The translations under genes were made by a program, and so were the position numbers. The notes beneath the pieces were generated by a model. The model saw only the letters and a list, made by a program, of their open reading frames with translations, was not told the origin of the DNA and ran no database searches. This document shows, piece after piece, positions 7,331 to 57,488 of a stretch of DNA of 64,000 nucleotides. The first letter of the stretch is position 1, and each line of letters begins with the position of its first letter. Origin of the DNA: Norana najaformis. Taxonomy: Eukaryota; Annelida; Clitellata; Crassiclitellata; Hormogastridae. The stretch is from NCBI GenBank assembly GCA_964023275.1, contig OZ029923.1:2433551-2497550 (forward strand), in the 5' to 3' direction.

Positions 7331-7491
7331 ATGAAGCATTAACCAAAAGAGTTCCGAACTAATCATAAGTACCGTATACTATTATCAAAAGGTTGGTGTG
7401 CTTTATCCTAAGCTGTTTCATTAGGTGTTCAAGGACAGGCCAGAGTACCGGAAAACGTAATATCGATTGCAACTGAATCTGTACCGTTGAA

Positions 7492-26200: not shown

Positions 26201-27526
26201 TATGTCTGTTTGCATGTATGTATTTTGTGTGTATATATGTACGTATGTATGTGTGCATTTATACGTGTATGCAGGTCTGTAGGTTGGTATACTTGTATCT
26301 ATGTATTACGTTTCTTTGTATGTATGTGTGTATGTATGTTTGTATTTTTTAAACATCTATGTACGTATATATATGCATATGTGTGAAAGTGTGTATGAAT
26401 GTGTCTAAGTATGTATATATGTATGTATCTGAGCTTTTGCGAAGCTCATTTAAGGACCTCTCAAAGCCTGGGAAGATGGCTTTTAAGGGATCTAAACAGT
26501 TTCGTTTTAACATTATAATGAAACTGCAAATTAAGTTGCGTCAGAAGAAACAGTACTTCAGTTCACAGGAAAACTGTTCCGAAGGGCTGAACTATTGCAC
26601 TGTATTGGACTTTATTGCACACAACGTAACAGTTACTGCATCATACTTACGGTATTTAAACAAAAGACTCTATTTTAATTTCTTGCTGACTAAAAGGCTT
26701 ATTCAGCGAGGTCTTCTGATTATCTTTACTCTGCATGACAACGACACGGAAACTGAACAAACAAATTTGTTCTTCAGGATTTGACTTTTTGACGCAGTGA
26801 AGAAAACTTGTTTTCCAGACGCAGCCCTTGTGTGGCACTACGACATTTCGGTGATTTACATTACATCTACACTGCCATTCGATTACATTTACATTTATCC
26901 ACATCGAACGCATCAAAGATGAGAGCTCATGGCTTTTGGTGGATGCTCTGGAATCTCCTGCTGCCATTGTTCTGGAACTATTTGTGCATCATGTTAAGTC
27001 CTCGCTGCGCAGCAGAGGGCTTTTGCTGTTGTTGCCCCATCTCTGTGCAATGGACTTCCGCTGTCGTTTCGTGCAAGGGTCACTGCTGGAGACAGAGCCG
27101 AGTCAGCTCGTTGTTTAAAGATGGTCTTACTTCCCCGGTGTTCTCATGCTGGAAGTGCCTCTGAGTAGTTTGTTCTGTAAGAAGCGCTATATAATTTATC
27201 AAATACAATACAATACAGTGTTCGTTTAGCAGGGTTTGTGTTGGCCTTTCAATAATGACTGAAACTCGTCTTCCTTGAGGAATAACTCGTCGGCTGATTC
27301 TGTGTCTTTCCAAACGCTTCGCCACCTGCTACCTTACCAACACGCTAGGCCTACCCTAATAATACAGCAAAGGGTGCTAGAAAAATGTTTAGCTCCATAT
27401 AAACATTACAATGCTAATCTACATATACTAGAAATTTAAAAAGATTTTTTTTCTTTTAACGGCAATACCTGTAAGTGAAATGACTACAAGCAGTCCAGCA
27501 TGCAGCGCTATCGAAGTAAGAACCAT
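22834..27526 (-). CDS. Receptor B: signal peptide, three Ig domains, membrane helix, short tail
   Basis: Predicted exons on the minus strand: 27469-27526, 25875-26147, 24790-25089, 23769-24020, 22834-22952. All junctions are GT-AG and phase 1; total 1002 nt, 333 residues. Residues 1-19 are a signal peptide (MVLTSIALHAGLLVVISLT). The V-like domain is 20-110, C2-like 111-210 and I-like 211-294; the last exon adds a short stalk, one helix (IAIGVTVCVVVLLIGGGV) and the tail WKNYSS. Signal, C2 and I domains are close to those of A. The V domain differs strongly between its central Trp and CDLVI, where B has seven extra residues. NNT and NGTS are likely glycosylation sites. A membrane recognition role is inferred from architecture. 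The gene is compact and shows no disabling change. Confidence 0.85.
22953..23768 (-). repeat. Intron 4 of receptor B with (AAT)n and GA-rich tract
   Basis: Positions 23188-23345 are mostly AAT/AAC units and 23400-23510 are CT-rich. Poly-Leu and poly-Tyr open frames on the minus strand come from this tract. Confidence 0.8.
24021..24789 (-). other. Intron 3 of receptor B, uninterrupted form
   Basis: Holds the empty target site of the 1.5 kb insert found in A (near 24060-24073) and the shorter version of the possible hAT-like element (24305-24560). Nothing else recognised. Confidence 0.6.
25090..25874 (-). repeat. Intron 2 of receptor B with degenerate minisatellite
   Basis: 25190-25470 carries the same irregular repeats as intron 2 of A. 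A short CATA array is at 25780-25810. Confidence 0.55.
26148..27468 (-). repeat. Intron 1 of receptor B: (GTAT)n array, unique DNA, LINE remnant
   Basis: 26175-26430 is a GTAT array ending at GTATCTGAGCTTTTGCG, the reverse of a SINE tail. 26985-27212 is the LINE remnant shared with A (GGTGTTCTCATGCTGGAAG and GCGCTATATAATTTATCAAA). The remainder is homologous to intron 1 of A without other features. Confidence 0.7.
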
Positions 27527-30937: not shown

Positions 30938-32499
30938 CTGTCTCTCTCTCTCTCTCTATGTCACTCTCACTCTCTCTCTTTTCCGCAAGCGTTTGAAGAC
31001 CGTATAATCCCCCACTAGTTTTGGGACATCGGGCCGGGAGCGCCTCTGATGAGTTTTAACTTTGAGTGTCGCTTAATAAGTTCTTGATTACAATTACAAT
31101 TACAATTCCAGTTTGGACTCCTCGCATGCGACATAAGTTTCTTGTCCTTTCTCCGCCTCTATTTCACCAGCGGTAGAAGACCTTTCCTCTTCATCTTCAA
31201 CCCATGTTGTCAGGTCGGCAGCACTCTGAAGAATTGTCTTAAAAGGCGCTATATAAACGTGCAATTGCAGTTACAATTACCTGCCAGTGTCGCATCCTCA
31301 GCGCCATGCTGCCACCCATCTGTTGTCTCACACCTGGCTTCTGGTACGTTCGATGCTCGGTCCCTTGCAGCTGGAACTCGAAATCTGGTAACACAACGAA
31401 ATGGTTGATCAGCGGAAAGCTGTTCCACTGAGCGAGAGAAAGACCGGCTTATGGTTCCACCGGTTTGTTGCTGAGGCGGAACGCGTTCCACTTGAGTTCC
31501 GTTGTTGGCGTACTGCCAGATCATCGTGGCTTTTTCCACGAGGCCGCTGTATGTCAGCGAACAGCGGTAAGTCAGCCCATCGTTCATGATTTCTTTATTG
31601 CTGGGTTTCTTAAGAAGACGTTCGCATGATGGAATAGACCCTGAAAACGCACCCGCTCAAATGCGAAGCCACTTAGAAACGAAATCGTAAAATGGCGATG
31701 AGTGTTATGGCGGTGGTCAGGGTAACAGAGGGATACTTGGAATCTCACTGAAAGACAGGAAAAGGAATGAGTATATCGAACAGAAATTGGGAGTGGCATG
31801 TATATCTGAAAAGGTACGAGAAGCTAGGTTGAGATGGTACGGTCATGTGATGAGGAGAGAGGAGGAAAATTGCATTAAAAGAATTACGACAGCTGAAGTT
31901 TACGGATGCCGCAGTCGTGGACACCAAAAGAAGAGATGGGGAGATATGATTCAGCAAGACCTAAAGCTCCTCAGATTGAAGAAAGAAGATACTGAAGACA
32001 GAACCAAATGGAAAAGAAGGATTCGTGTGGCTGACCCCTCTGCTATAGGAGGGATTAATTCCAGCCAGAATGAAGAAAAAATGGTAACAGTGGGATGACG
32101 CACGCAATGATGTCATTGATGACGATGGCGAAGATGTTGAAGCTGGTGATGGTGATTGGCATCCAATGTAGCCTGTCTTGGCGTGCTGACTTTCTGGATA
32201 ATGAGTTGATGACGGCTTAGTTTTGGTATGCTATGGGTCGATGCCTTGTGCATTATACATCGGCGCTATAGAAGTTTTAAAGTAATAATAAAATAATAAT
32301 GGTGCTGATGAAAACGACGGCGATGATGCATGATGGTTTTATTGTGATGAGATTATGATGATGATGACGATGATGATGATGGTGATGATGATGGTGATGA
32401 TGATGAGGATGATGATGATGAGGATTACAACTACGACGAGTATGAGGACGACGACAAAAACGACGACGACAATGATGGTGTTGTTGTTTTTGTTGTTGT

Positions 32500-32538
<39 letters not shown>

Positions 32539-33556
32539 CTGTGATGACGTTAATATAGATCTGACGAAAGAAAATTCCTTGTTACTGACAAACTCTAATG
32601 GCTACAACTAACCAAGTACAATAAGAGAGGCGCTCAGCGAGTCCACGTTGGCAATTCTACAGACGAACAGACCAGCATCCGACGTTGTTACGTTATGAAT
32701 GACCAGATCACATCCATCCGTCTCATCAACTCTGTATCGCTGTTGAAATGGCTTCAGAACTCCCGCGAAGTTCTGATAGATGGGTGTATTGTTGTCAGCT
32801 TCCGTCTTCAACCATTCTACAGACGCACAGCCGTTCATACCCGACGAACATTTCAAAGTTGCCGACGCCTTGACGATAGCAAATAGGTTTTCAGGTCCTC
32901 TGATCTCTCCACTAGCACCTGCATGGATTAATCGCAAAGGTAATCGTAAACTCCATATTTCTTCTGCCGGCATATGCTAGTTAGTTTTGGGAACCAGCTT
33001 GTTCACGGTCGATGCATTTCTAATTATTCACTTGCGCATGCCCACTAGTTATATTTGCCTGCCTCACAGTCTTGTTGCTTACTTACTAACCTACTTACTT
33101 ACGTATTTACTTACCCACTGTAGTCTGATTCTGGTATATCTGACTTATCGGATTTCGATCGGGATTTTTCAGCAGATTATGATTTCAGTTGAAACGACCA
33201 TCAGTTAATACCCGGTGCAATGACATATTGGCGCTGTAGAGTTCATTGGCTTAGATTACTAACTTACTAACTTACTTACTAACTTACTTATTAACTTACT
33301 TACTAACTAACTAACTAACTAACTTGCTTGCTAAAAATAAAATAGGTGAGAAAGGCATACAGACATTACAGGGTCAGGTTCGATTCCTCGTCGTCGTCAT
33401 GTGTAATAACTCGCTTATTAAATAATGCTACAATTTATTTATTAAGAAGAGATTAACAGACTAACGTTCATTGATAAATACGATACTAAATAAGGTTAAA
33501 TAAGGCCTACCCACTGATGCGAGAAAAGCAAGCAGCGTAACCACGGTAAACGTCAT
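29119..33556 (-). CDS. Receptor C: signal peptide, two Ig domains, membrane helix, short tail
   Basis: Predicted exons on the minus strand: 33511-33556, 32613-32918, 31281-31640, 29119-29261. All junctions are phase 1; total 855 nt, 284 residues. Residues 1-15 start a signal peptide ([15 protein letters not shown]). Residues 16-117 are a V-like domain (LKC...VEW...GCDLVIHNV...AGLFVC), 118-237 a C2-like domain (YRCSLTYSG...MIW...FRCVT...RCETT), and 238-284 a stalk with NVT, one helix ([21 protein letters not shown]) and a tail ending GIDCFD. There is no I-like third domain. The C2 exon is about 8 codons longer after the CET motif than in A and D and ends exactly at the tail of a retroposon, so its donor site looks recruited. 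V and C2 are closer to those of D than to A or B. Confidence 0.75.
29420..29640. repeat. (GACA)n array in intron 3 of receptor C
   Basis: GACAGACA units with CACAGA variants. The VSVC- and TDRQ-repeat open frames on both strands are composition artefacts; the long minus-strand frame at 29119-29640 is simply the membrane exon read back through this array. Confidence 0.95.
29695..29865. repeat. Degenerate (AGATT)n repeat
   Basis: Pentanucleotide-like AGATT/AGCTT units, clearest at 29825-29855. Similar TAATC runs occur near 44070. Confidence 0.7.
29985..30150. repeat. AATTAGCTCC/ATGCAAATTTGC minisatellite, copy 2
   Basis: Counterpart of 20455-20680, with longer period (TTGTATGCAATTAGGTCGTT twice). 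It marks the duplication edge. Confidence 0.75.
30190..30505. repeat. Inverted pair of LINE family 1 ends, tails outward
   Basis: 30190-30340 is the LINE 3' end on the minus strand and 30375-30505 the same end on the plus strand, with about 35 bp between them. The (GATTAC)n tails lie at the outer edges. Confidence 0.75.
30506..31110 (+). pseudogene. L2-like LINE end with an internal (TCTC)n expansion
   Basis: The start reads a LINE C-terminal block ([19 protein letters not shown], then [14 protein letters not shown]). At 30672-30985 it is replaced by TCTC/TTTG simple repeats, then resumes with CCGCAAGCGTTTGAAGACC and ends in (ATTACA)n. Frames crossing the repeat are artefacts. Confidence 0.7.
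31130..31280 (+). mobile_element. L2-type retroposon tail abutting the receptor C C2 exon
   Basis: Contains TTAAAAGGCGCTATATAAAC and then a TTACAATTAC tail that stops at 31280. On the minus strand the tail supplies the donor (GTAATTGTAA) used by the receptor C exon ending at 31281. Confidence 0.65.
31700..32095 (+). pseudogene. Non-LTR LINE protein C-terminus in intron 2 of receptor C and exon edge
   Basis: The plus-strand frame carries [20 protein letters not shown], then [14 protein letters not shown], then [13 protein letters not shown] and [10 protein letters not shown], a pattern typical of the C-terminal end of RTE/jockey-type LINE proteins. It is short, 5' truncated and antisense to receptor C. 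Confidence 0.75.
32255..32545. repeat. Retroposon tail plus (GAT)n array in intron 2 of receptor C
   Basis: 32255-32310 has the CGGCGCTATAGAAGTTTT end with an AATAATAA tail. 32345-32545 is a GAT/GAC trinucleotide array that yields poly-Met frames. Confidence 0.85.
32919..33510 (-). repeat. Intron 1 of receptor C with (TTAC)n runs
   Basis: 33070-33112 and 33255-33335 are TTAC/TAAC tetranucleotide runs; the second follows a GGCGCTGTAGAGTTCATTGG retroposon end near 33222. A box B-like GGTTCGATTCC is at 33378-33388 without a convincing tRNA around it. Confidence 0.65.
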
Positions 33557-41277: not shown

Positions 41278-41388
41278 TCAAGCCGTGGTTACATCGGCGT
41301 ACACAGACTCCTGTGGAACGTTATTATTCGTGGTAGCAATATGACGTGGAGCATTTTCCCTTGCAAGCTCAGCATAAGTTACTTCCTC
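41278..41388 (-). CDS. Receptor D last exon carrying both ITIMs
   Basis: After acceptor TTTTTCTAG the exon reads [16 protein letters not shown], a linker, then [13 protein letters not shown] and a stop at 41278-41280. It is 36 codons, too short to stand out alone, and is supported by the acceptor, by frame continuity with the preceding exon and by the two tyrosine motifs 25 residues apart, the usual ITIM spacing. Confidence 0.75.
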   Translation of the reverse strand, partial: EEVTYAELARENAPRHIATTNNNVPQESVYADVTTA

Positions 41389-41591
41389 CTAGAAAAACAG
41401 ACATACAGAAACATTATGTTAAACCGTAGCTAATCTAATCCAACAGTATCTAAATCAAACTTTTATCTAATCCCATTCTGATGTAAACATCCATACAGCA
41501 TACACACCTTCACACATACACACATCCATACATACAGACCAACAAATACATAATACATGTATGCATACATACATAATACACACACAGACAC

Positions 41592-41683
<92 letters not shown>

Positions 41684-44600
41684 CATAATACACACAGACA
41701 CATTATATATATATATATATATAATGTGTGTGTATTATGTATGTATGCATACATGTATTATGTATTTGTTTATATATTTACATACTGAAGATTGGAGGCT
41801 TTTCAGTTATGGGTTGCAGGATGGAGAAGGTTAGCTGGACAGAGCAAAAAACAAAGAGGTGCTTCAACAGATGGAGGAGAAAAGATCTCTGATGGCAACA
41901 ATAAGAATGAGACAGAGGAAATGGATTGGACACATACTGAGAGATGATTCCCTTCTGAGAAATATCATAGAGGGAAGAATGGAAGGAAAGAAAAGAAGAG
42001 GAAGACTGAGACAAATTCTACTATGGTGGACATATAAGGTAAATGGAAGGAGGAGGCATAACAACGTCAGGAGTGGCACCAATGGACGTTAGAACCTGCC
42101 TGGGGGCGGAGAACTTGAAGAAGAAGATCCTACTATATCTAATCTATCAAACAATTATTCACGTATGTATATACCGTGTGTGAAAGTTTGCATATATGGG
42201 GTATGTATGCACAAAGTACAGTGCCTTTAAAGTTATTGCTTAAGATTGCCCCACACATGGTTCTACACATACATACATACTGTTACTAACTAGGGCACTT
42301 CCTTATTCTATGACAATATCCGTCAATTACCCCCACAAGACCACACAAGAAAGCAAATACAGAAACAGGAACTCAGTGAGAATCGCATGCAGGCTTTGCA
42401 AACAGCGGCCAATTTCAGCGCGCTGCAAAACATCGAGTCACGATGCCATCACCAACCAGGATATGTTCTATTAATACACTCAAACATCCTAGCAACACAA
42501 GTCACGCATCACATTACATGTAAAATGTACTAAAAGTTCCCATGTCCCACAGCGGGCTATTAGGGGGACACTCAATTCTTATTAACTAGGCTTTTGAGTC
42601 AGCCATGGACAAATCCTAAGATCCTGGAAGAGTGGCTTGCCATTTACTTCCCAGCTTATGCCGATACCAAATTATTCAGCTTGGTGAAAGAAGTATGTAT
42701 GAGCAAATAACTTGCCTAGGGTTATTAAACAGAGAGCAATCAGCATGCTCAAACCTGCAATGGATGGATTAGAACACTACAGAATAACCAGAACTTATAA
42801 TAAAATGTAGCATTATAAGCCAGCCACAGCTGCATAAGAAATGATTAACATAAAAGCCACACTTGCTGTCTAGCAGAAAGCCACAGTAACTCTGCTCTAT
42901 TATCAATTCAGGCTTACAGAAGCTCTAAACATAATGTCTCTTATTAGCAGATGCTACAGTATTTGCAAGTGTTGTACATACATGTTGGCTATTAACCAAT
43001 ATTACTAGTAAGTGTTGTACATATGTGCTGGTATGGATTTGCTATCATCAGATAATCGTAATTGTAATCCCGAGATTTCTACAGCGCCCAACGAAAGCCA
43101 TGCCACGGGGACCAGCTTATTCACAGGCGCTCAGTCAAAACAAAATCGATAGGCAAAAAGGTTCGTTTCCAGGTCAAGATCCAAAAGTCAGATGAAGAGA
43201 CAGCGTGGCAGCTACGGGGGTGGTGTTTGGGGTTGGAGAGGACAGAGAGATAAGGGGAAGAAGGGGTGTCAGGATAAGATCTGTGAAAGAAGAATGTTTT
43301 CAGTTATAAGTGAAAGGCCGAAGGAGAAATTGCAAACGGTGGAGCATCAGTGAGTTTGTATGATGGGTCAGAAAACTGTCACAGTTCTGGGAGGGGGGTT
43401 TCTTTAAAATACTACTTGTACGGGTTTACTATTAGCAGATACAACTTGTGAGTGTTGTACATACGTGTTGGTAATTATTTACTGGGTTAGCCTTTGGAAT
43501 GTCCGTCCGTGGCTTGGCCTGAGGTGGAGCCTCCTGCGGTCTTTTCGGAGGCTCACTAGTTGGAGCCGATCTTGGCTTGGCTTTCGGTGCTTCACGAATT
43601 TGATTGACGTTGCTGTAAATATCTGGACATACTGTCAACGGTTGCTCCTCTCTGATGCAAAAGAAGGTAACATAATTTAAAAGGTAACTCAACAAAGGTA
43701 ACTCAACTACAAGGTGTAAAGAAGGTACCATAATTGCTCAACATCTGTTAAGTGTCTGAACAGAATGAACAGTACACACTCTATATAAACAGTACCACAT
43801 AAACAGTATAAAAAGTCCATGAACTGTTTAAATGTATAAACAGTACCAACTGCATAAACATTATTAACTGTATTTATTAACAGAATAAACTTTATTAACA
43901 CTACAGACAGGTTACACAGTACCACAATCTCTATAAACAGTATAATCTGTATTAACTGTATAAACATCATGAACTGTAAAGATTTAAACATTATAAACAT
44001 TATAAACAATAAACAGGAACTGAACAGACACTCCATGAACAGACATACCACGGCATCTAACGGGTACTTTAATCTAATCTAATCTAATGACTTTTATTGT
44101 GCTGTTGCCACGGTGAATGAGGCATCAATCGATGTTCGCTTCAAAGTGAAACCACATTAAAAAACCATAAATATAATTGCACACAATGTCCCTCCAAAGT
44201 TGACATTTCAAAATTTCAGGCACAGCTTTTGTGAAAGAGGAATACAAAAACGTTCCTTTCATCAGGTCCCTGATGAAACTCAACAGCCCTGTTTGTGAGC
44301 TATACTGTTCAATAATGAACCACTAGCAGCATATGACAGAGTAGGATCTGTAATTTCTGCACACAGATGACCCTTAATAAAAGCCTGGCATGTTTTAGAA
44401 AACATTTAAATTCATTTTCAAGTTGAAATTAATTTAGAAAGCTGAATTTGTTCAGCATACAGGTTTTTAGCATGGCTACAGAGGCAAAGAGGAAAATGTA
44501 CAGTAAATAAAAGACATGTAAACAGTAAATACCTTGTACATGTAAACAGTAAACACCTTGTACATGTAAAGTAAACAGTAAACACCTTGTACATGTAAAC

Positions 44601-46376
44601 AGTAAATACCTTGTACATGTAAACAGTAAACACCTTGTACATGTAAACAGTAAACACCTTGTACATGTAAACAGTAAATACCTTGTACATGTAAACAGTA
44701 AACACTTTGTACATGTAAAGTAAACAGTAAATACCTTGTACATGTAAACAGTAAATACTGTGGGGCATGGTAAATGATTCAGTAGAGCGCTCGGCTTGTA
44801 AGTCGAAGAGTACGGGCTTGAGCTTCCTCTGAGACGGTTACTGTGTAGGGACCTTGAGCAAGTCCTTCACTCACAATTGTTCAGCACCATCAATTGATGC
44901 TTAGTCATTAAACAGTGGAGCCTAATAAATGCAGAAATATTAATAATAAATAAAAAAAGTACAGTAAATAAAAAACGTGTACCATAAACAAAAAGATAAG
45001 CATAGTAAATAAAAAATGTGTAAAGTAAATAAAGAGGTGTACAGTAAACAAAAAAGACAAGTTGGCTAACCTTATTTTATCTGAAAACAAAAACAGAAAC
45101 AAAAAATTAGTGTTCAGTTTGGAAACAAAATAGTTGCACTGTCGGTATTTTCTGCATCTTATGCACTGGTTACTCGTTTTTAAAACATCATTGTACGAAA
45201 CACCCACAATTTTAAAATAGTTTCAGTCACACAGCAGTCACGATTTCTGATCCAAATTAGGCAAGGCCAGCAGAGTAATATAAAATAACGTGCGCCTTCA
45301 ATAAATCTCTCATAATCAACGGAATACAAGGAAATCAGCAGTTTTAGTCAATAACCACCATTTATTTATATAGCCGGAAAATACATAATTTGATCTGAAT
45401 CAGATATTAAAGACTGCTGTCTGTCATGTGACTATAGATTTTGGAAATGATGAAACATCTAGCTAAGAACCCATGCGATCTATATCACACAGAAAAAGCA
45501 GGGCACCGGCTTATTCTCGAATACTGCATCAAATGAGAGGGCTTGATCCGGTCCCAGAAGACCCCAGAGAACACGACAGTAATCAACCCTCTCATTTACG
45601 CAGCAAAACCAAGATACTCCACTGTAACAATACCAATGACTTACATACAAACTCACCAGCACTTCGCCCCTTGCAATCTCTGCACAGGTCTTCTGCTCCC
45701 CTTCCACAAAACCTATCCTGGTTCTTCCTCTTCCCCTCATCTCAGGTCAATATCCAGAAGATCAGTTCACTAAGACATAGGCAGCTCATGGGAGATAAAC
45801 CGAGTAAAAAGGTGAGTCTTAAGTCGAGAATAAAATGACATAAGAGACTGGGCATAACGCACAGATGCAAGAAGAGAATTCCAAAAATTTTGGTCTAGCA
45901 TCCGAAAAAGCTCGCTTACCAACAACAGTCTTAGTTTCTGGCACAGCAAATAACTAAGATATGTAGTAATATAACGATAATAATAAATTACGTTTTGAAT
46001 TCTTTTCCGGATGGCAGCACTTGTATCCCGGACAGGATCGAACACAAAAACAGATGGCGAGCAAAATTATGAGAACAAGGACTCCAACTCCAGCACCAAC
46101 TGCGATCGATACTATCAAGTGTAAACCAGCAAGAGGATTCACTGTTGTGGTTGTAGCTGTAACACTACCATTATCTTCTGACACAGCATATAACAAAGTC
46201 CATTAGATATGCAATCACTGAAAAACCAAAACTAAAAGCCGCCCTGTACAGCTATGATAATCTTATTCTGGGGCCCGTAAGAAAACGTAAGAAACGGCAT
46301 TAGTGTGAACTGGTAAATATGCGTCTGTGAATGTATGTATTCATGTAGCATAGGTATGTATGTATGTACTTACCAG

Positions 46377-46418
<42 letters not shown>

Positions 46419-49400
46419 TGCATAAGCATATGAATGTATGTACATGAATATACGTATGCAAGCATGTATGTATGTATTTATGCATGTATCTAAGTGAGCA
46501 TATATTTATGCATGTATGACATGATGTATGTATGGATGTATGTATGTATGTATGTATGTATGCATGCAAGTATGTACGTATGTATGTATTTTTTATACCC
46601 CAAGGTGTGTTGCAAACAACGGGCTACGAAAAATCAATCCACTGAGAAGACAATGTACCTGAAACAGCTAAGACTCTGATGTCTGGCAGTGATAAGTATG
46701 TACAACAGGTAAGTACATGCATATACATAAGTATGTATGTATATGTGTTTGTGTACATAAATATACATATGCAAACATGTATTTATGTATGTATTTATTT
46801 ATGCATGTATCTAAGTAAGCATATATTTATGTATCAATGTACTCATGTAAGTTTGTATATATGTATGTGTAACGACACTTTCTATCGAGTGATCAGCCGG
46901 ATGGATATTACCAGCTAGTTACTTTCATAATATTATTTCAACAGATAACATATCACAGTCTAATAATTGGCTCTAGGCATTTCAGTTCATACAAAATCAT
47001 GGTTTGTAGGTTTATATAAAATACATTTAATAATTAAAATGTTAATTAGATTAATGTACAGTAAATAAGTCGAACAATTATCTATACATGATTAGATTCC
47101 ATATTATTTACTTATAAGCCAGCAATAGTCATAATTAGGCTTATTAATTATATTACTCTCCCCAAGACAGCTAGCATGTTCTCACTCGCTTGAACTGTAG
47201 GCATCGTAAGATGATTGCCAATTCTCTTGACCAAGTGAAGGAATGTCACATTTACTCGTGCAAAGCAGTGTCTCTCACTTTAAGACATCAGGATGATAAA
47301 ACTCACAGTTCATTGCATATAAAGCCAACCATAGGAGATTCACAGCCTCTTATAGTTGCAGAAACAATTCTCTAGCTTCTTGAACAGTTCCATGTCCTTC
47401 TCATTCTCTGTATCACTTAGTCCATCGTCGAATCTGATGTCGACCGCATGATGACTCAAAGATCTATATCGGTCGAAGCCAACAAACTCACAGTTTGCGC
47501 TAATTCTGCTGGGTCAATGTTCGGCACTAGTGAAATCGCACTAGTTTTCGATAACACTTGTACAAAATACTTGTAACGTCACAAAACTAACTTCACGGAT
47601 TGTCTGACCATCGAACTACCTTCGAAGCATAGCCTGTTCTGTACAATACAGTGTTGGAAAATCGCCTCATAACTGACACATCCTCCATCCTTTTGACGGT
47701 CGAAACGCAACTCTCAACTGAATCCGCAGTGGAGATGCGCAATGCATCAACGTTGAGCAGACGACATCTGATCTGGCCGTTATAATTCAAAATCCTCCGC
47801 TGAATCTCTGCTCTTGTTGAACCCATGAGACAGTGTCCGGTTGTTCCCCGTTGTGGTTAACAACAACAGTTATATTACCCATCTGTGCTGGCAAGACTTA
47901 ATTTAACATTAATCCAACCTAACTGCTGGCTTTTACATTAAATAAGCACATACTGATAATACCACCAAACACAGATTTAGACACACATACTTTTTATTCA
48001 CATAAAGCATAGATGCATGTGAATATAGGAGAAACGCAATAAAGTACAATCCCACAGCTGGAGAAACTTTTATTACAAGGTTGGAAAATGTGTAACATGC
48101 AACTGGTGAATCTTAGTAGTCAGACACTGGACACATCGACATGAAAACTCACCATGTTATCCAACATTCAATACTCCAGACCCACAAACACTGGCATCTT
48201 TCTATCAGTTGCCTCCAGAAAGAATGGTTTAAAGAAAACAGTTGATAAAGAAATGACTTCTGCACTATGATAACAGGCACCACAGAAGTTATCACATTGG
48301 AAATACATGAAGTATCCATATGCTAATCCTGACAGCTAGACTATGGTATCTGCACAGAACACCTAAAAGAAAATGCTATACAGAAAACAGCAGAATGAAA
48401 ACTAAACATCAAAGACATAACAATACCTCCTGTGTTGTTAACTCGGAACTCATCAGAAGTTGCGTTGTACCTCTTGCCTCTCACTACATTCATTGCCACA
48501 CATCTGTACCCCTTGGAAGTGGCATTGCTAACAGAAAATGTACTGCTGTTCTGATTAGGAATATCTATCCATGTTCCTCCATTTTCTGATTCCAGTGCCT
48601 GCCATTTGAAACTTGCAGCAGGATTTCCCATTGCCGTACACGTAATGGTGGTTCCAGGAGCATAATAAGAATGTGATGGTGACAAAGTGACATTCCTAAC
48701 TGGATCTGAAACAGATTTTTAGAAGAGAATGTATACAGTGATGTGAAGACATTGTAATGATTTACCTGAAGTGGGTTGAAAAGATGAGTTTTCAGGAAGA
48801 TCCATAAGTGACACATAGGAATGTATATTGTTTTTATTTTAAGTCGATTTTTTTCTCTTAGTCGATTATGTTTGCATAGTTAAACATTGTTAATAAAGTT
48901 TAAAGTTCATAGCTGTCAGCTGCTTATCATAATAGACCTCTGCCTTTATACCAAAAATTGGGCTGGATATAACTTAAGCATTAACCTTATCTAACGCCTT
49001 TTGCATTGTATCAATCAATGTTTGTGTCGCTAACTGTGAACAGTTTCTTGTTATTTATTATATTTGTTGCAATTATTGTGCACACAATTTAAGTAAATAT
49101 GACTCTGATGCACGAGACGAGTGTGTGCAAACAACTTGTCCAGAGTCATACTATACAGTCCACTCAGCAGGTTTGAACCCACAATCAACGGCCTGCTAAG
49201 TACTGCGTAAACCATGTGCCGTATGGTGCAGTTTTAGTTCAAAATTAGCATTCAGTTCTAGGCACAGTAAGCAAACGATGTATGACTCAACTATACGAGA
49301 AAAGACAATTAATAAGAGCATCTTACTGGACGAATGAAGATGGGGTTTCTTATGATTTCTTGTGGTTTTATATTGGCTAACAGGGTATTACATGTTACAT

Positions 49401-52400
49401 CTGTGATTTCAGTTACATATAACGGTACCTATTAATGATACATTTATGGCAGCTAGTAACACTACATGTTACTATAGCTATTTATGCTAAGAATTACTGT
49501 TACAATTTTTGTAACACGTTTTGGGAGTTATTTCAATATCTAGGCTCTGTTCAATAGGAAGCCACTAGAGAAACATGGTGCTGTAACGATTATGGTGCAT
49601 TGGAGGCAGAATGAAAGGCCTGTGGTAATGAAAGTTCTGTTGTGACTGAGCCTGCTCACAGTTAGGTTCTAGTATTGAACATCACAAACTGATTAAACAC
49701 TGACATGACGTAAAACTCTCATATCAAGAAGAGAAATTTAATTCTGTCAGGTAACTGCTAATCTAATCCAATCCAGAAATTTTTGTACTGCCATTACAGA
49801 ATATAGTTATATATAGTTACAGAATACAGGTGATGCCATTATAGAATGGCATCAACTGAAAATCACTTTGAAGTGAATCCATATGAAGTCTGTTGTCGGA
49901 AATATGAGAATGTTTAGGGTAGGTTACCTAGGAAAACAAAGATCACCTCTTTCTGATCTACATGTAAATGGAAACTGATGAACTGGTGAAACATCAAGAA
50001 GTTCATCAATAGCATTCTACTCAGCACTTTTTGAATAAAAAGATAAATGGATATTCTTATTGGATATTAACATCATTCAGTTAAATACTTACAGAGGACT
50101 TTGATGGCAGATGTTTCACAAGCAGTAGCTGGAATGTTTAAAGCCAAGCCTGTAACGCCTGTTGCGTTAACTTCAAACGAAGTGACACAAGTGAATGATG
50201 GAACCTCAGGAGCTGAAGCAACAACAGAGTAAGACCGTCGTATGGTATTTCCATTTTCCACAGCAGCCGGAGCACCTTTCACGTCTTTCCACAGCATCGA
50301 TGCATTGTGTGTCCCAGTGTATGTCATCTCACATGTCAACTGCACTCCATCCCCTTCCATTGTGTCATCCAGAGAGGCATTTATTGCACATTTGGGTTGA
50401 GTTTCTACGAACACATATTATATGAAATATATTTAAAACAACAGAAACTTTTATTAATCATTTACAATCACCATTCCCAATGCAATGAACCCAAGGCCAG
50501 GTATTAGTCAAAGTTTAATGATTTTGCACTCATAGTAGACTGCCTATTCAATCTTAGCCTAGAAGACACTTCCAACTGAGGCCTGGAAGGGGAAAGCTGC
50601 TCTCATAAATGACTTAGCCGTTAAATCACGAAAATCAACTGTTTTTGCAGTTATAAAGTCAACAAGAAAAATGGTTGCAGCATAATTTTATTTATTTACA
50701 CTGCATTTTAGTTATTATTTTAGAGCACTGTTTAACAAGGAAGGTGTGATTGTCACCCAGGTGAGACAGAGCTCACACAAAAGAAAACCTGATTCATAAC
50801 TGATCATCAATTTCATGCATCAACAAACAATTGTTATTGGTTATGGGGCTGAAAGATCTTTTCACTCAGATGCTTAAATTTGAAAATTGATTAAATAGAG
50901 ACAAACTTTCTTATGATTGACAGTGCATGTAGCATAATTTCATATGATTAGAACTAAAATTTGAAATAATTTATGCATCTCTGTTTATGTATGCACTTTC
51001 GTTACGCCCTTAAAAGGTGCTATACTAATGTTCAGATACATACATACATGTATACATACACACATACATGCATACATACATAAATACATTCATGTATACT
51101 TACATGTATACATACATGTATCATAAATACACTTCAGAACAAACATCAGAAACTAGCATGCCACGGTGGATCTACGAGAAGTTAAATCCAAGGCCACAAT
51201 GAAAAACTTCTGCTGGAAGCAACTTGATGTGAAAACAACCCTACAATTTGGAAATGCTACCAAAAAGGCAAGTATTCCAGGAAATGTCCATGTGATTTGG
51301 CAAAAGCATACAAAAAACGAACACTGTCATAATAAACTGAATGAAATTGAGATGATTTATTTGTTGCATTTACAATGCATGTAATGTCAGTATTTCTGAA
51401 ACATCCATGTGGCAAATTAGCTATCACATAAGTCAAAATCCTGTTTTCACTACTACAGGTGAACATATCACTAGGTAGAACAGAAGAGGAAGATTTTTAG
51501 CAAATCCTGATTCACCGAAGAATTGGCCAAAATGTGGTATGCAGAGCTAACTGCACAAATTTAGAACAAGCCCTTTAAAAGCCTTACTCTTAGCATTTAC
51601 CCTAATAAGCAGTAGTAAGAATAACTTTCAAGACCATTGGTTTGAGGTTAACTAAGAAGCATGGTATTTAGTGCCCAATATAAAATTACTTTACTAGGTT
51701 ATTGCCTGAACAAACCTGCAATAGGTAGGCAAATTATCTCTTTGCCATTGTCAAAGAGGCTCTACAGAAACATAGCTTTAAGAAATCCATCTTTAACAGT
51801 TCTGTCTGTTTATATTTTATAAAATCATTCTCACCACTGAATCACCTGAAATAAAAATATCTCACCCAATATAGTAAGAACAGCACTCCTTTCAAATGTA
51901 TTTGGTGAAATAAATACTCTACAAAGGAAGCGTCCGGCGTCCGTCAGTTTAACGTCGTTAATAACTAAATCACAACCGGATGAATTGTCGATGCTGTATC
52001 GATCTCTGTAAGCGCTAAGTATTCCATTGCGATCACTGAAAACAGTCTCTGGGTTGTTCGGAGGAATAAATTTCTGCCAGTCGACACCAGTACAGTTTCC
52101 AGATGGAGTTGAACATTTCAAGGTTACTTTTGACCCGACAATGCTCAGAGTGTTTTGAGGTCCTTCCATTTGACTTTGACGAGCACCTAAAAGTAAATAA
52201 AACATTCTGATTTACAAATGTGCTAAATTTAATTTTATTTTATTCAACAATAAAAACATATACAGTAAGGCATACATACAGAGTCACAAAGACAGAGCAG
52301 TAGACAGAGAGACATACAGACACATGTAGACAGACACACACAAACATAGACAGACACAGACAGACTATAGACACACACAAACAGACAGACACACACAAAC

Positions 52401-55400
52401 AGACAGACACACACACAAACAGACAGACACACAAACAGACAGAAAGAGAGACAGACAGAAACAGAGACAGAAAGAAACACAGACAGACAGAAACACAGAG
52501 ACAGAAACATAGACAGACAGAAACATAGACAGACAGAAACATAGACAGACAGAAACATAGACAGACACACAAACAGACAGAAACAGAGACAAACAGAAAC
52601 ACAGACAGACAGAAAAATAGACAGACACACAAACAGACAGAAACACCGACAGACAGAAACACAGACAGACAGAAAAATAGACAGACAGAAACATAGACAG
52701 ACAGAAAAATAGACAGACAGAAACATAGACAGACAGAAACACAGACAGACAGAAAAATAGACAGACAGAAAAATAGACAGACAGAAACATAGACAGACAC
52801 ACAAACAGACAGAAACAGAGACAAACAGAAACACAGACAGACAGAAAAATAGACAGACACACAAACAGACAGAAACACAGACAGACAGAAACACAGACAG
52901 ACAGAAACACAGACAGACAGAAAAATAGACAGACAGAAACATAGACAGACACACAAACAGACAGAAACAGAGACAAACAGAAACACAGACAGACAGAAAA
53001 ATAGACAGACACACAAACAGACAGAAACACAGACAGACAGAAAAATAGACAGACAGAAAAATAGACAGACACACAAACAGACAGAAACACAGACAGACAG
53101 AAACACAGACAGACAGAAAAATAGACAGACACACAAACAGACAGAAACACAGACAGACAGAAACACAGACAGACAGAAAAATAGACAGACAGAAAAATAG
53201 ACAGACAGAAAAATAGACAGACAGAAACATAGACAGACAGAAACACAGACAGACAGAAAAATAGACAGACAGAAAAATAGACAGACAGAAACATAGACAG
53301 ACACACAAACAGACAGAAACAGAGACAAACAGAAACACAGACAGACAGAAAAATAGACAGACAGAAACATAGACAGACAGAAAAATAGACAGACAGAAAA
53401 ATAGACAGACAGAAACATAGACAGACAGAAACACAGACAGACAGAAAAATAGACAGACAGAAACATAGACAGACACACAAACAGACAGAAACAGAGACAA
53501 ACAGAAACACAGACAGACAGAAAAATAGACAGACAAAAAATAGACAGACAGAAACATAGACAGACACACAAACAGACAGAAACACAGACAGACAGAAACA
53601 CAGACAGACAGAAAAATAGACAGACAGAAAAATAGACAGACAGAAACATAGACAGACACACAAACAGACAGAAACACAGACAGACAGAAACACAGACAAA
53701 CAGAAAAATAGACAGACAGAAAAATAGACAGACAGAAAAATAGACAGGCAGAAACATAGACAGACAGAAACACAGACAGACAGAAAAATAGACAGACAGA
53801 AAAATAGACAGACAGAAACATAGACAGACACACAAACAGACAGAAACAGAGACAAACAGAAACACAGACAGACAGAAAAATAGAGATACACACAAACAGA
53901 CAGAAACACAGACAGACAGAAACACAGACAGGCAGAAAAATAGACAGACACACAAAGAGACAGAAACACAGACAGACAGAAACACAGACAGACAGAAAAA
54001 TAGACAGACAGAAAAATAGACAGACAGAAACATAGACAGACAGAAAAATAGACAGACAGAAAAATAGACAGACAGAAACATAGACAGACAGAAACACAGA
54101 CAGACAGAAAAATAGACAGACAGAAACATAGACAGACACACAAACAGACAGAAACAGAGACAAACAGAAACACAGACAGACAGAAAAATAGACAGACAAA
54201 AAATAGACAGACAGAAACATAGACAGACACACAAACAGACAGAAACACAGACAGACAGAAACACAGACAGACAGAAAAATAGACAGACAGAAAAATAGAC
54301 AGACAGAAACATAGACAGACACACAAACAGACAGAAACACAGACAGACAGAAACACAGACAAACAGAAAAATAGACAGACAGAAAAATAGACAGACAGAA
54401 AAATAGACAGACAGAAACATAGACAGACAGAAACACAGACAGACAGAAAAATAGACAGACAGAAAAATAGACAGACAGAAACATAGACAGACACACAAAC
54501 AGACAGAAACAGAGACAGACAGAAACACAGACAGACAGAAAAATAGAGAGACACACAAACAGACAGAAACACAGACAGACAGAAACACAGACAGGCAGAA
54601 AAATAGACAGACACACAAACAGACAGAAACACAGACAGACAGAAACACAGACAGACAGAAAAATAGACAGACAAAAAAATAGACAGACAGAAAAATAGAC
54701 AGACAGAAACATAGACAGACAGAAACACAGACAGACAGAAAAATAGACAGACAGAAAAATAGACAGACAGAAAAATAGACAGACACACAAACAGACAGAA
54801 ACAGAGACAAACAGAAACACAGACAGACAGAAAAATAGACAGACAGAAAAATAGACAGACAGAAACACAGACAGACAGAAAAATAGACAGACAGAAAAAT
54901 AGACAGACAGAAACATAGACAGACACACAAACAGACAGAAACAGAGACAAACAGAAACACAGACAGACAGAAAAATAGAGAGACACACAAACAGACAGAA
55001 ACACAGACAGACAGAAACACAGACAGACAGAAAAATAGACAGACAGAAAAATAGACAGACAGAAAAATAGACAGACAGAAACATAGACAGACAGAAACAC
55101 AGACAGACAGAAAAATAGACAGACAGAAAAATAGACAGACAGAAACATAGACAGACACACAAACAGACAGAAACAGAGACAAACAGAAACACAGACAGAC
55201 AGAAAAATAGACAGACAGAAAAATAGACAGACAGAAACATAGACAGACACACAAACAGACAGAAACACAGACAGACAGAAACACAGACAGACAGAAAAAT
55301 AGACAGACAGAAAAATAGACAGACACACAAACAGACAGAAACACAGACAGACAGAAACACAGACAGACAGAAAAATAGACAGACACACAAACAGAAAGAA

Positions 55401-57488
55401 ACACAGACAGACAGAAACACAGACAGACAGAAACACAGACAGACAGAAACACAGACAGACAGAAACACAGACAGACAGAAACACAGAGAGACAGAAACAC
55501 AGACAGACAGAAACACAGACAGACAGAAACACAGACAGACAGAAAAGCAGACAGACAGAAACACAGACAAACAAAAACACAGAAAGACAGAAATACAGAG
55601 AGACAGAAACACAGACAGAAAGAAACATAGACAGATAGAAACACAGACAGACATACAGAAACACAGACAGACAGAAACAAAGAAAGAAGGAAAGACAGAC
55701 AGACAGAAACACAGACAGACAGAAACACAGACAGACAGGTGGAAGAATTAGATAGAAAAACAAAGGAAAAGAATCAAACTAAAAGGGTAAAGAAACTGGT
55801 AGGCAAGAAGACTAAGCCAGATCAAAGTAAGCAAGAAGCAGTAGAAAGGCAGCATAGACAAGGGTAAGGAAAAATATCCTCCTGACCCTCCTTTGAATAC
55901 TGGAGAATAAGCTGTTTGGTTCTAATCTAAAGACTTCTGTAGTGCTGTTATCATGAAGCCCAATAGTTGCTTCAAGTCAAAATCGCAGTTAAAAATCATA
56001 ATCCATTGGAGAACCCACATCGAATTCATGTTACATGCTTGCTTTTCGATCATGGGCTCAATCGTAATTGTAATCTCTGGATTACTTCAGCACCCAAAAA
56101 ACCTAAATCATGCAAATGAGCTTATTCACAGGCGGCTCTTAATCAAAAAAAAATCAGTGAGGCAGGTATGGTGAAGTTCAGTTCAAAGTTCAGATCAAAG
56201 GTCAGGCAGGTAGATACCGAATGTGTTTTGGTTCAAGTCTGACAAGGAAAGTAACAACTGCGAAAAAGGTTTCTTGTTAGTTCCTGCTGCCACCAAGTAG
56301 AATTTGGAATGACTATGCAAACCGTTGCCAAGAGAGTTTCCTCTAATACACTGTCTGTGGAATCAAGACGGTTATCCCTTGTCTGTTTAGGATCTAAGAA
56401 GGATATAATAACTCTAACAATAATCCAAGAACTTCTATAGTGCCACTGTAATAATGCTCCAGGCATCAGTCGATGGTTGCTGCGACGCAAAATCATTGTA
56501 CAAGCCAAATTCCAGGGCAAGTCTGATTGAAAAGCCAAGAAGGGAAAATGAGTGAATAATATTTGTTGATACTGGAAACAATCTTCATTTGGTATTAATC
56601 AGACTAGATCCTGGTTTAACTGACTGAATGACAACAGTGTAACACATTTCACAGACAGACTAGTTAAAACCAGTTTCTGACTAAGATAGCATTTTATTAT
56701 TCATAAGAAATTGTAAACTTGAGGTTTCTACAGTGCCCAAAGAAAGCTAATTCACAGGAACCAGTTTATTCACAGGCGCTCAGTAAAAACAAAATCGATA
56801 GGCAGGAAGGGTCGGTTTTGGTTTCCGATCAAGATCCAAGTCAGTCAAGTATACAGTCAGATGGCTATGGTGGATGGTGTTTCGAAATGGAGCAGTAAGA
56901 TAGATAACGGAAGAGGGGGAATTAGGATAGGATTTGTGGAAGAGGAGCGTTTTCAGTTTTGAGTTAACGACCTGTGAGAGGTTGCAAGTGGTGTAGTGAG
57001 GGTGAATTCAGGATGAGTAGATAATTGCCGTAATGCCGGCCAGCGGGAGTTTATTCCACAGACGGAGCAGGCAGAAAAGTGACAGGGTCAAACCCCAAAG
57101 ACACTAACTCATTTCTAATGGCAGGCGACCATCAATCTTCCGCCATAAATCTTACAATGGACAACTGAATATTTATCGTCACTAACGCCAAAACTTCACA
57201 GTAGCTGGTCAACGAATGTGGAAGAGGAAGCGAATGAACTTGGAAGAAAAAAGGGTGGAAAATGTAGTGTGACGCAAACCCATTGGCACACACACGAAGA
57301 AACTGGTAGCTAAATCAACCCACTATAAACCTGTTTAACTATAATTAAAATCTGATAAGAAACTGAACGATTTACTTGCCCGAAAGAGTAAACAGGAACA
57401 GGAAAACAACTGTTATGATCGTCTTCAGGCAGTTACTTGGACGAAACACATTAAACAGGCAAAATCGTTTCCGCTCGATTATCGACAT
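41278..57488 (-). CDS. Receptor D: three Ig domains, membrane helix, cytoplasmic tail with two ITIMs
   Basis: Predicted exons on the minus strand: 57380-57488, 51866-52186, 50093-50404, 48427-48705, 45992-46177, 43465-43649, 41278-41388; total 1503 nt, 500 residues. Junctions are phase 1 except the last (phase 0). Intron 1 has a GC donor (G|GCAAGT). Residues 1-36 carry a type-II-like basic start and hydrophobic [14 protein letters not shown] (signal). V-like 37-143, C2-like 144-247, I-like 248-340, stalk and helix 341-402, then a tail with DIYSNV (Y414), a Pro-rich region 422-458, VTYAEL (Y469) and SVYADV (Y494). The last two fit the ITIM consensus [SIVL]-x-Y-x-x-[ILV]; in vertebrate receptors such motifs recruit SH2 phosphatases such as SHP-1 and SHP-2. 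An inhibitory surface receptor is inferred. The exact donor after the Pro-rich exon could instead be at 43482. Confidence 0.82.
41594..41722. repeat. (AT)n dinucleotide array
   Basis: About 85 bp of pure AT, a short CATA interruption, then more AT. It produces a YIYI open frame in both directions that is not a gene. Confidence 0.95.
41785..42130 (+). pseudogene. Non-LTR LINE protein C-terminus
   Basis: The plus-strand frame has the block [20 protein letters not shown], then [20 protein letters not shown], common near the end of LINE reverse-transcriptase proteins. Frame changes upstream show decay. Antisense to receptor D. Confidence 0.8.
43045..43420 (-). mobile_element. LINE family 1, 3' part
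   Basis: Minus-strand copy running from the (GATTAC)n-type tail (43050-43072) through ACAGCGCCCAACGAAAGCCA and GCGCTCAGTCAAAAC to TTTGTATGATGGGTCAGAAA. It closely matches 58786-59120. Confidence 0.8.
43465..43649 (-). CDS. Receptor D penultimate exon: YxN motif and proline-rich region
   Basis: Reads from [18 protein letters not shown] to a run rich in Pro, Lys, Arg and Glu ([17 protein letters not shown]). YSNV is both YxN (a GRB2-type SH2 ligand in other animals) and YxxV. The prolines could bind SH3 domains. The acceptor chosen (CATCAGAG) is the only one nearby that keeps the phase. Confidence 0.65.
44515..44760. repeat. 24-bp minisatellite
   Basis: About ten units built on CTTGTACATGTAAACAGTAA, some extended to 29 bp by an extra AAAGT. 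Each holds the palindrome TACATGTA. The 24-bp period keeps frames open, giving spurious VFTVYMYK repeats. Confidence 0.92.
44765..44935 (+). mobile_element. tRNA-derived SINE
   Basis: Head similar to a threonine-type tRNA (CAGTAGAGCGCTCGGCTTGT, then AAGTCGAAGA and GGGCTTGAGCTTCC as a weak box B), followed by GACCTTGAGCAAGTCCTTCA and CACAATTGT, the core shared with 17550 and 49110. The tail is AATAATAAAT. Confidence 0.6.
45470..45950 (-). pseudogene. L2/CR1-like LINE 3' end
   Basis: Minus-strand frame reading [20 protein letters not shown], then [13 protein letters not shown], followed by a 3' UTR resembling LINE family 1. The open frame on the plus strand (45473-45838) is its shadow. Confidence 0.7.
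46178..48426 (-). repeat. Intron 4 of receptor D
   Basis: 46320-46600 and 46695-46875 are GTAT/CATA arrays with (TA)n at 46381-46412. 47593-47826 is a minus-strand 77-codon frame ([19 protein letters not shown]) that could be a LINE scrap but is not recognised with confidence. Otherwise unassigned. Confidence 0.6.
48706..50092 (-). other. Intron 3 of receptor D
   Basis: 49085-49235 is a minus-strand SINE: reverse reading has box B GGGTTCAAACCTGC and the core CTGGACAAGTTGTTTGCACA. 49755-49860 is a retroposon end with a TAATC-type tail. The rest is AT-rich and unassigned. Confidence 0.55.
50405..51865 (-). other. Intron 2 of receptor D
   Basis: 51005-51050 is an L2-type tail (TTAAAAGGTGCTATACTAAT) that runs directly into a CATA array (51035-51125). 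No gene recognised in the rest. Confidence 0.5.
52300..55737. repeat. 3.4 kb GACA-based minisatellite with higher-order structure
   Basis: Basic units of about 16-17 bp: ACAGACAGACAGAAAC, AGACAGACAGAAAAATAG and GACAGACACACAAACAG, arranged in longer repeating blocks. Two stretches of about 650 bp (around 53.34-53.88 and 54.00-54.54 kb) carry almost the same unit order, implying block duplication. All three minus-strand frames stay open for more than 1100 codons because no unit contains a stop on that strand; these are not genes. Confidence 0.95.
56055..56215 (-). mobile_element. LINE family 1, 3' end (divergent)
   Basis: Tail ATCGTAATTGTAATC, then TACTTCAGCACCCAAAAAAC and TTATTCACAGGCGGCTC, a diverged version of the 43045 copy. 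Confidence 0.6.
56710..57110 (-). mobile_element. LINE family 1, 3' part (divergent)
   Basis: TTTCTACAGTGCCCAAAG, CACAGGCGCTCAGTAAAAAC and TTTATTCCACAGACGGAGCA match the 58786-59140 copy in order. Confidence 0.65.

Follow-up and report, generated by a model that had tools for sequence, protein, structure and literature searches.

The question raised by this locus of the annelid Norana najaformis is whether a gene for an Ig receptor with two ITIMs, here called gene A, encodes an inhibitory receptor, and which signals such a receptor would oppose. Invertebrate Ig receptors with ITIM or ITAM have already been reported among the allorecognition candidates of Botryllus and Hydractinia, according to PMC12065747, and an ITAM in an oyster receptor, according to PMC11999971. 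A sequence-only reading of the 64,000-nucleotide stretch analysed here (the window) had proposed gene A as an Ig receptor of invertebrate type, with inhibitory signalling inferred from known families. The most informative fact lies outside the view of that reading: beside gene A stands an array of ITAM genes.

Results

Structure of gene A

Gene A lies on the minus strand, and its seven exons join to 1503 nt, that is, 500 residues and a stop codon, with junction phases 1, 1, 1, 1, 1 and 0. Places, phases and length all agree with the earlier claim of seven exons joined in phase. Exon 1 (57380..57488) carries the start codon and, by eye, a signal peptide, and P0002 has a similar junction between signal peptide and V domain. 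An IgV domain is encoded by exon 2 (51866..52186), a C2-like Ig domain by exon 3 (50093..50404), with four cysteines common to all four aligned sequences, and an I-like Ig domain by exon 4 (48427..48705). Exon 5 (45992..46177), which matches P0001, encodes the stalk, a transmembrane helix recognized by eye and juxtamembrane cysteines. The cytoplasmic part is completed by exon 6 (43465..43649), with a YSNV site and a proline-rich stretch, and by exon 7 (41278..41388), with the ITIMs VTYAEL and SVYADV and the stop codon; exon 7 is entered in phase 0, as is the ITAM exon of the array genes.

All six introns end in AG, and all but the first begin with GT; the donor of intron 1 is GC (GCAAGT), a feature absent from the sequence-only reading. 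Exon 6 has two overlapping acceptors (CAG/AG/AGGAGC), of which the one at 43649 is phase-compatible with exon 5, while the one at 43651 needs a possible 10-nt microexon (45071..45080, minus strand). Two donors of identical phase, CAC/GTATGT and CCA/GTAAAT, were also read from the sequence for this exon. The weak points of the model, whose exons are predicted, are the GC donor at exon 1 and the imperfect acceptor of exon 6.

Ectodomain and relatives of gene A

The proposed order of V-like, C2-like and I-like Ig domains followed by one helix was borne out. Pfam V-set, ig, I-set, Ig_2 and Ig_3 all score above their cut-offs on the gene A protein, with Pfam matches on the V and I-like exons. The V domain is predicted to adopt an IgV fold (mean pLDDT 86), and among the best PDB matches of this model V domains of antibody light chains predominate (lowest E 1.7e-7, TM 0.82). 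For the middle, C2-like domain the model has a pLDDT of 84.8 and the best PDB matches are weak (lowest E 6e-3). With a signal peptide, an Ig ectodomain and one transmembrane helix (signal and helix seen by eye), gene A has the plan of ITIM-type Ig receptors.

The best outside relative, P0001 (E 2.4e-38), reads through in a single frame and shows the same signal-V-C2-I-helix-CC-P order as gene A; the exon joins are therefore supported as far as the beginning of exon 6. P0001 carries neither ITIM nor ITAM. Repeat-pattern scans of genome and viral contigs, together with protein pattern scans, returned no relatives.

Cytoplasmic tail

The tail comprises 114 residues. Its scan for S/I/V/LxYxxI/V/L found two motifs, at 467-472 (VTYAEL) and 492-497 (SVYADV), whose tyrosines (469 and 494) are 25 residues apart, and the core YSNV lies at Y414. 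The motifs named in the sequence-only reading (DIYSNV, a proline-rich region, VTYAEL and SVYADV, the last two of ITIM consensus) are thus in place. When the tail was shuffled, at least two ITIMs occurred in 0.27% of 200,000 shuffles. A search of the tail for relatives, as suggested by that reading, covered 75 candidates and gave none with the ITIM tail of gene A at E<=10.

A tandem array of ITAM genes

Gene A stands at one end of a tandem array of ~350 kb on contig 11, which contains 24 V exons of the gene A type. The ITAM last exon (ESAYASLGNDRDTNEYESL) is present in 19 copies genome-wide, all within C11:2132348-2364320 and on one strand; four of them have a stop inside the matched stretch. 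Of the A-type genes with a defined 3' part, 10 of 13 have this exon and a01, a02 and a04 do not. The pattern YxxL-x8-Yxx[L/V] is kept in all 11 copies read in sequence, and among these pN (0.094) is lower than pS (0.24); the exon is under purifying selection. The ITAM consensus is D/ExxYxxL/I-x6-12-YxxL/I, and nine of the 11 sequenced copies match it strictly; of the remaining two, one carries K at position -3 and the other V at the last site. A scan of 324 kb for D/ExxYxx[L/I]x6-12Yxx[L/I], in stretches with at least nine different residues, gave 16 matches, nine of which are the ITAM exon of the array; the shuffled ITAM exon peptide meets the strict pattern at 8e-5.

Gene models that run from the V exon to the stop codon are complete for four array genes, a05-a08, and do not extend to a09-a13 or to signal-peptide exons. 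These four run without an inner stop and have the phase plan of gene A, an agreement that is no independent test because the models were built by choosing splice sites of the expected phase. Helix exons were seen for a09, a11 and a13. Gene a03 has a frameshift in V, and its model contains 20 stops.

The ectodomain exons of gene A are close to those of ITAM genes. Between the V exons of gene A and a13, pS is 0.049; among the other array genes, of which 11 were compared, it does not fall below 0.077. V identity at the protein level reaches up to 89% between gene A and the ITAM genes of contig 11, the labels ITIM and ITAM being read from the motifs alone. The C2 exons of gene A and a06 differ by a pS of 0.026, the array mean being 0.219. 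In both cases similarity ends near the exon edges. The lowest C2 pS among the array genes is 0.013, below the gene A-a06 value, and near-identity is therefore not special to ITIM-ITAM pairs.

Other genes of the window and signalling partners

Genes B, C and D also lie on the minus strand. Gene B has a V exon of a second subtype (32613..32918) and a C2-like exon with an uncertain 3' edge (31318..31641). Gene C consists of exons for a signal peptide (27469..27526), a V domain (25875..26147), a C2-like domain (24790..25089), an I-like domain (23769..24020) and a helix (22834..22952), the last with KHGKAIR at the outer edge, a short tail and a stop. Gene D repeats these elements with its signal-peptide (16897..16954), V (15269..15520), C2-like (14176..14481), I-like (11349..11597) and helix exons (10495..10625; KHGKAIR, short tail, stop). 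KHGKAIR, with its K and R, is found at the helix start, on the outer edge, in all four short-tailed genes (C, D, F and G). On the opposite, plus strand, gene E is a disrupted V exon that is split in two and contains stops (7433..8228). Our first models of genes C and B had used helix exons at 20232-20377 and 29119-29261; in gene C a helix exon lying 1 kb beyond the I exon has taken its place, and the others may be alternative last exons. Rfam and tRNA scans returned no matches.

For the phosphatase side, result tables list six exon match sets for SH2-SH2-phosphatase (SH2-SH2-PTP) in the genome.

Discussion

In this study, the most probable reading is that gene A acts as the inhibitory partner within a paired-receptor locus of an invertebrate, an annelid. 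This reading is based on the observed gene structure, the motifs and their spacing, the ITAM array with its like plan, the selection on the ITAM exon, the near-identical ectodomain exons and the SH2-SH2-phosphatase matches. The IgV-led ectodomain of gene A would bind a ligand that is also bound by closely related array receptors, presumably expressed in the same cell type. Upon binding, a Src-type kinase would phosphorylate both ITIMs of exon 7, and these, with their tyrosines 25 residues apart, could dock a tandem-SH2 phosphatase of the SHP type. Once docked, the phosphatase would damp signals from array members with an ITAM in the last exon. The YSNV site and the proline-rich stretch of exon 6 are probable docking sites for additional adaptors of the SH2 and SH3 kind. 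Architecture, motifs and spacing are as the sequence-only reading described them, and its inhibitory signalling is a step that we, too, infer.

A broader scenario is put forward tentatively, as a possibility that falls somewhat short of even odds. A complete paired-receptor locus may have arisen independently in annelids or been retained from early bilaterians. It would comprise a single ITIM receptor and as many as about twenty ITAM receptors in cis, together with short-tailed members whose helix edges are basic and which rely on an ITAM adaptor. Exon-limited gene conversion would keep the ligand-binding exons alike, so that one ligand is read by opposing receptors, giving a natural-killer-like balance in a protostome. 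Since an ITIM gene ends a row of sister genes, many of them with ITAM, our data suggest that worms evolved the on/off pairing used by human natural killer cells. If true, a protostome locus in which near-identical ectodomains are joined either to an ITIM exon or to canonical ITAM exons would show that this logic was reached repeatedly from IgV receptors. It would also make testable the idea that decisions of worm coelomocytes depend on the balance of ITIM and ITAM.

Several known systems resemble this locus. In mammals, CEACAM1 and CEACAM3 likewise share one locus, in which similar ectodomain exons are linked in cis to cytoplasmic exons of either ITIM or ITAM-like type, and the account in PMC2832619 describes gene conversion centred on their N-domain exon. 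The annelid array differs in ITAM spacing (x8, versus the x7 given for CEACAMs), in its three-domain V-C2-I ectodomain and in having far more ITAM than ITIM exons found; the likeness is one of plan and not of demonstrated kinship with CEACAM genes. In the vertebrate LILR, KIR and PILR families, an ITIM receptor with a long tail is accompanied by short-tailed receptors that have a basic residue at the helix (PMC3533184), an arrangement that the annelid locus may parallel, whereas in the annelid the basic residues lie at the outer helix edge and many members carry their own ITAM. PD-1 and BTLA share the spacing of 25 residues between two tyrosine motifs, as given in PMC8631942, but theirs are an ITIM and an ITSM, whereas gene A has two ITIMs on three Ig domains. 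Among invertebrates, the FcoR proteins of Botryllus resemble gene A: they are described in PMC12065747 as type I Ig receptors, 520-610 aa long, whose genes form a multigene locus and which carry ITIM, hemITAM or core motifs. Unlike gene A, in which a Pfam search gave no sushi match at E<=1, FcoR has a sushi and two C2 domains besides its V domain and is paired with fester proteins. The Hydractinia Alr complex, likened here by description, is an IgSF gene complex whose candidate genes carry ITIM and ITAM motifs (PMC12065747), and the family has 41 members according to PMC11999971. Oyster CgIgIT2 is likewise a lophotrochozoan Ig receptor with an ITAM, but it has five Ig domains and the account in PMC11999971 that we draw on describes no ITIM partner.

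These comparisons also bring in another function. The array might serve allorecognition or cell sorting through homophilic IgV contacts, with ITIM and ITAM tails tuning adhesion and not immunity, a view that we consider unlikely. It is favoured by the presence of FcoR and Hydractinia candidate receptors, with ITIM, hemITAM or ITAM, in allorecognition loci (PMC12065747), as well as by the size of the array and its variable ectodomains. However, we know of no colony formers among annelids of this kind.

Quite improbable, in our assessment, is that exons 6 and 7 serve as alternative exons or persist as relics, in which case the main product of gene A would stop after the helix, as it does in P0001 and in the short-tailed cousins, and would signal through ITIMs little or not at all. 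The imperfect exon-6 acceptor fits this proposal, as does the lack of a second exon-7 copy in 324 kb of fetched array sequence. Moreover, six-frame translation of the window gave 2 ITIM-like pairs 20-30 residues apart (40 shuffles: mean 2.35, maximum 7). ITIM-like pairs are therefore not rare in raw DNA, and the case for exon 7 is built on phase, position and the array, and not on the motif pair by itself. The codon bias of exons 6 and 7 (0.185 and 0.255) does not separate them from random open frames (mean 0.038, 95% point 0.466). On the other hand, the positions and entry phases of both exons match those of the mid and ITAM exons of the array genes, and a copy of exon 6 with 69% identity (G000:C11:2375379-2375564, plus strand) is in frame and has the same donor. 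The in-frame score of exon 7 also exceeds that of its five other frames, although not that of random open frames. Since the neighbours with an ITAM have a pair of tail exons at the corresponding places, exons 6 and 7 most likely belong to gene A, as the paired-receptor reading supposes.

YxN motifs bind Grb2, and the YSNV site and proline stretch of exon 6 could make the tail mainly an adaptor scaffold (Grb2-type YxN and SH3 sites), with YxxL/V sites for endocytosis or SH2 adaptors instead of phosphatase inhibition, but this is very improbable given that both sites fit the ITIM consensus in full, that they are spaced by 25 residues as in receptors which recruit SHP, and that the genome has SHP-type match sets.

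With regard to the genome as a whole, which comprises 17 chromosome-sized contigs against 16 chromosomes in Botryllus, two features mark an annelid, probably a clitellate. Erythrocruorin linkers, which are not known outside annelids, gave 29 matches (best 8.1e-32) in Norana najaformis and none in 14 control genomes, a weak control in that those named are prokaryotes. Hox-type homeoboxes, whose identities of up to 92% exceed those of sponges and cnidarians and make either group very unlikely as the source, are dispersed over several contigs.

Structure of gene A

The window lies at G000:C11:2433551-2497550 in a genome of 608 Mb and 17 contigs, whose sizes (between 19.4 and 63.9 Mb for those inspected) suggest that they are chromosomes. 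Gene A, the Ig receptor on the minus strand at 41278-57488, comprises seven exons that encode 500 residues with join phases 1,1,1,1,1,0. We reproduced the in-phase joins proposed in a sequence-only reading, and that reading had placed exons 6 and 7 correctly to the single base. In a domain-model search, V-set, ig, I-set, Ig_2 and Ig_3 exceeded their curated cut-offs. Modelled from an alignment with seven relatives, the V exon alone gave an IgV fold (pLDDT 86), and most of the nearest solved structures were V domains of antibody light chains (best E 1.7e-7, TM 0.82). Thus, the V-like assignment of that reading gains a modelled fold, but its C2-like domain keeps only a loose label, because the likeness of this middle domain to solved Ig domains is weak (best E 6e-3). 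The middle domain was modelled with fair confidence (pLDDT 84.8), and its four cysteines are kept across the four family sequences aligned. Intron 1 contains about 3.5 kb of tandem repeat of the AGACAGACAGAAA type (52290-55750).

Several exon joins are supported by proteins from outside this genome. Relatives were sought among 5.8 billion proteins, the roughly 8,000 candidates with most shared words being scored in both searches. Gene A as query gave at least one relative, and an alignment of gene A, P0001, and the neighbouring genes C and D gave at least six in all. The relative P0001 (382 aa, 33% identity over 79%) presents in order a signal peptide, three Ig domains, a helix, then a G[FY]xCC-P stretch followed by TVxxDI, residues spanning the exon 5/6 join of gene A; P0001 has no ITIM. 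The join between signal peptide and V domain is backed by P0002. At 50-59% identity, P0002 aligns with V and C2, P0003 with V plus part of C2, P0004 with V, and P0005 and P0006 with C2.

The tail of gene A has 114 residues and five tyrosines, namely Y392, Y414 (YSNV), Y462, Y469 (VTYAEL) and Y494 (SVYADV). The ITIM consensus used here is that of PMC8631942, parts of which describe a distance of 25 residues between the ITIM and ITSM tyrosines of PD-1 and BTLA, and a similar spacing in many receptors. Two or more ITIMs appeared in 0.27% of 200,000 residue shuffles of the tail, and dinucleotide shuffles of the window gave a mean of 2.35 ITIM-like pairs per six-frame scan. Since shuffled DNA yields such pairs this often, the ITIM pair alone is no proof, and the case for it stands on exon context rather than on the motif pair.

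A tandem array of related genes

We read 30 kb on each side of the window and a further 200 kb leftward, 324 kb in all. Within this stretch gene A is the rightmost family member, as the 30 kb on its right yielded no family exons. Leftward follow gene B (a second V subtype), the short-tailed genes C and D, and another two C/D-type genes (F in the fetched piece L010, G in L011). Beyond G there are mixed B- and C-type pieces plus A-type genes roughly 4-14 kb apart. A genome-wide V exon search, in which the best 150 of 339 candidates were scored and 100 matches listed, revealed among the matches listed at least 24 A-type V exons including that of gene A (at least 50% match to gene A), all at C11:2.135-2.485 Mb. 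In this count two pieces at 2316470-2316786 were taken as one; this pair and the V exon at 2221719 are broken. Partial V matches of 51-56% at 2441596, 2381308 and 2349064 were classed as the gene B subtype, to which a broken plus-strand V exon at 7433-8228 (gene E) also belongs. More distant IgV-like exon clusters, 26-43% identical to the V exon of gene A among the matches listed, lie at C2 0.58-1.29, 5.75-5.82, 39-40.5 and 47.7-50.2 Mb and at C4 28.6-29.0 Mb, and possibly represent much larger receptor families.

Many genes of the array end in an ITAM exon. In fetched DNA, a last exon with the frame xGQQESAYASLGNDRDTNEYESLEQR follows TTTAG at eleven places, and the 19 matches genome-wide all fall on one strand of C11:2132348-2364320. 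A stop lies inside the matched stretch in 4 of the 19 copies, after the ITAM in the two read. Both YxxL/V cores are intact in all eleven copies read (pS 0.24, pN 0.094 over 25 codons). Among the 13 A-type genes with a defined 3' part, ten carry this exon (a03, a05-a13) and a01, a02 and a04 lack it. The ITAM consensus is D/ExxYxx[L/I]x6-12Yxx[L/I], and nine of the eleven copies satisfy this strict form. Scanning the 324 kb for the strict form, limited to stretches with at least nine different residues, gave 16 matches, the seven beyond these nine being scattered. A second last-exon type, with YVEVSQRRGMPSYTTL and YVEV/L-x8-Y(T/K)xL, occurs on the minus strand at three places (C11:2378000, 2321345 and 2309853), including a02 and a03, and fits the ITAM form if V is allowed. 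Both types occur in a03, perhaps as alternative ends. In CEACAMs, YxxLx7YxxI/M is termed a non-canonical ITAM in part of PMC2832619.

Gene A and the array genes share one plan. The array helix exon has a phase 1 donor (two read), a conserved middle stretch SCFVADVAQPMKQEKSPSSHQLSSIPSRETAS stands between helix exon and ITAM exon, and the ITAM exon begins in phase 0. Gene A follows the same course, with phase 1 ahead of exon 6 and phase 0 at the start of its last exon. With splice sites of the expected phases picked by the modelling script itself, four array genes (a05-a08) could be joined from the V exon through to the stop codon free of internal stops; a03 is broken in V. An inverted copy of exon 6 at C11:2375379-2375564 (69% protein, 83.5% DNA identity) has the same donor as gene A but a different acceptor. 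It may be a relic, because the 324 kb showed no A-type V-C2-I set next to it on the same strand.

Possible exon exchange between ITIM and ITAM genes

In DNA, the V exon of gene A shares 93.7% identity with its counterpart in the ITAM gene a13, over 350 bp ending near the exon edges. For the C2 exon, identity with the ITAM gene a06 is 93.5% across 383 bp, of which about 65 bp extends past one exon edge. Synonymous differences are 0.049 between the A and a13 V exons, against an array mean of 0.202 (11 genes, minimum 0.077), and 0.026 between the A and a06 C2 exons, against 0.219 (12 genes); here the array minimum is 0.013, so array genes are very close among themselves too. Because neighbouring exons of gene A have different nearest genes, these data suggest ectopic conversion or unequal exchange between gene A and ITAM genes, as described, in part of PMC2832619, for ITIM/ITAM CEACAM pairs. 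Ectodomain and tail types may also be shuffled between genes. At C11:2364210-2370601, minus strand, a C-type V-C2-I set precedes an A-type helix exon and, after that, the ITAM exon copy at 2364320, which falls outside the 13 genes.

The last exon of genes C, D, F and G is a helix exon, in which xEV(S/I/T)LTKHGKAIR precedes a hydrophobic stretch of about 20 residues and a short tail (about 6 to 12 residues). Activating paired receptors of vertebrates, as presented in sections of PMC3533184, combine a short tail with Arg/Lys within the helix, whereas in C, D, F and G the K and R lie at its outer edge; hence, an activating role is suggestive only. Two near-identical extra helix exons ending (T/I)DCF(Y/D) stop, at 20232-20377 (2.5 kb past the helix exon assigned to gene C) and at 29119-29261 in gene B, are possible alternative last exons.

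Candidate partners and genomic background

The genome search placed SH2, SH2 and PTP matches in order on one strand at no fewer than six places: C8:26284869/26290171/26293035, C8:26305659/26306861/26310994, C6:6254453/6252866/6249510, C1:56781925/56778154/56770177, C10:11763056/11764200/11775606 and C10:11663931/11662738/11652713. The tables, read by eye, held the best 150 of 353 and best 150 of 207 candidates (131 matches). These sets are exon matches rather than assembled genes, and several of the single matches contain an internal stop, as expected of read-through at exon edges. For a further SH2 pair (C10:11587033/11591100), no phosphatase was nearby among the matches listed. The fetched pieces L001-L008 hold phosphatase genes whose intronless open frames span 747-1021 residues; as judged by eye, some of them encode a helix and two phosphatase domains. 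Elsewhere among invertebrates, ITIM receptors include Botryllus FcoR and Hydractinia candidates (part of PMC12065747), and an oyster ITAM receptor appears in portions of PMC11999971.

Homeobox matches of up to 92% identity, spread over several contigs, indicate a bilaterian, and erythrocruorin-linker matches indicate an annelid; scattered Hox genes fit a clitellate. In the window, open frames resembling mobile-element proteins lie at 1797-3256, 4366-6075 and 37178-38249, one with 569 residues; we take one to be hAT-like and one Tc1-like. A dispersed repeat core, CTCAGTMAAAACAAAATCGATAGG, has seven window copies with up to 3 mismatches (30278, 30397, 34667, 43130, 56779, 58682 and 58863) and also occurs at the start of C17.
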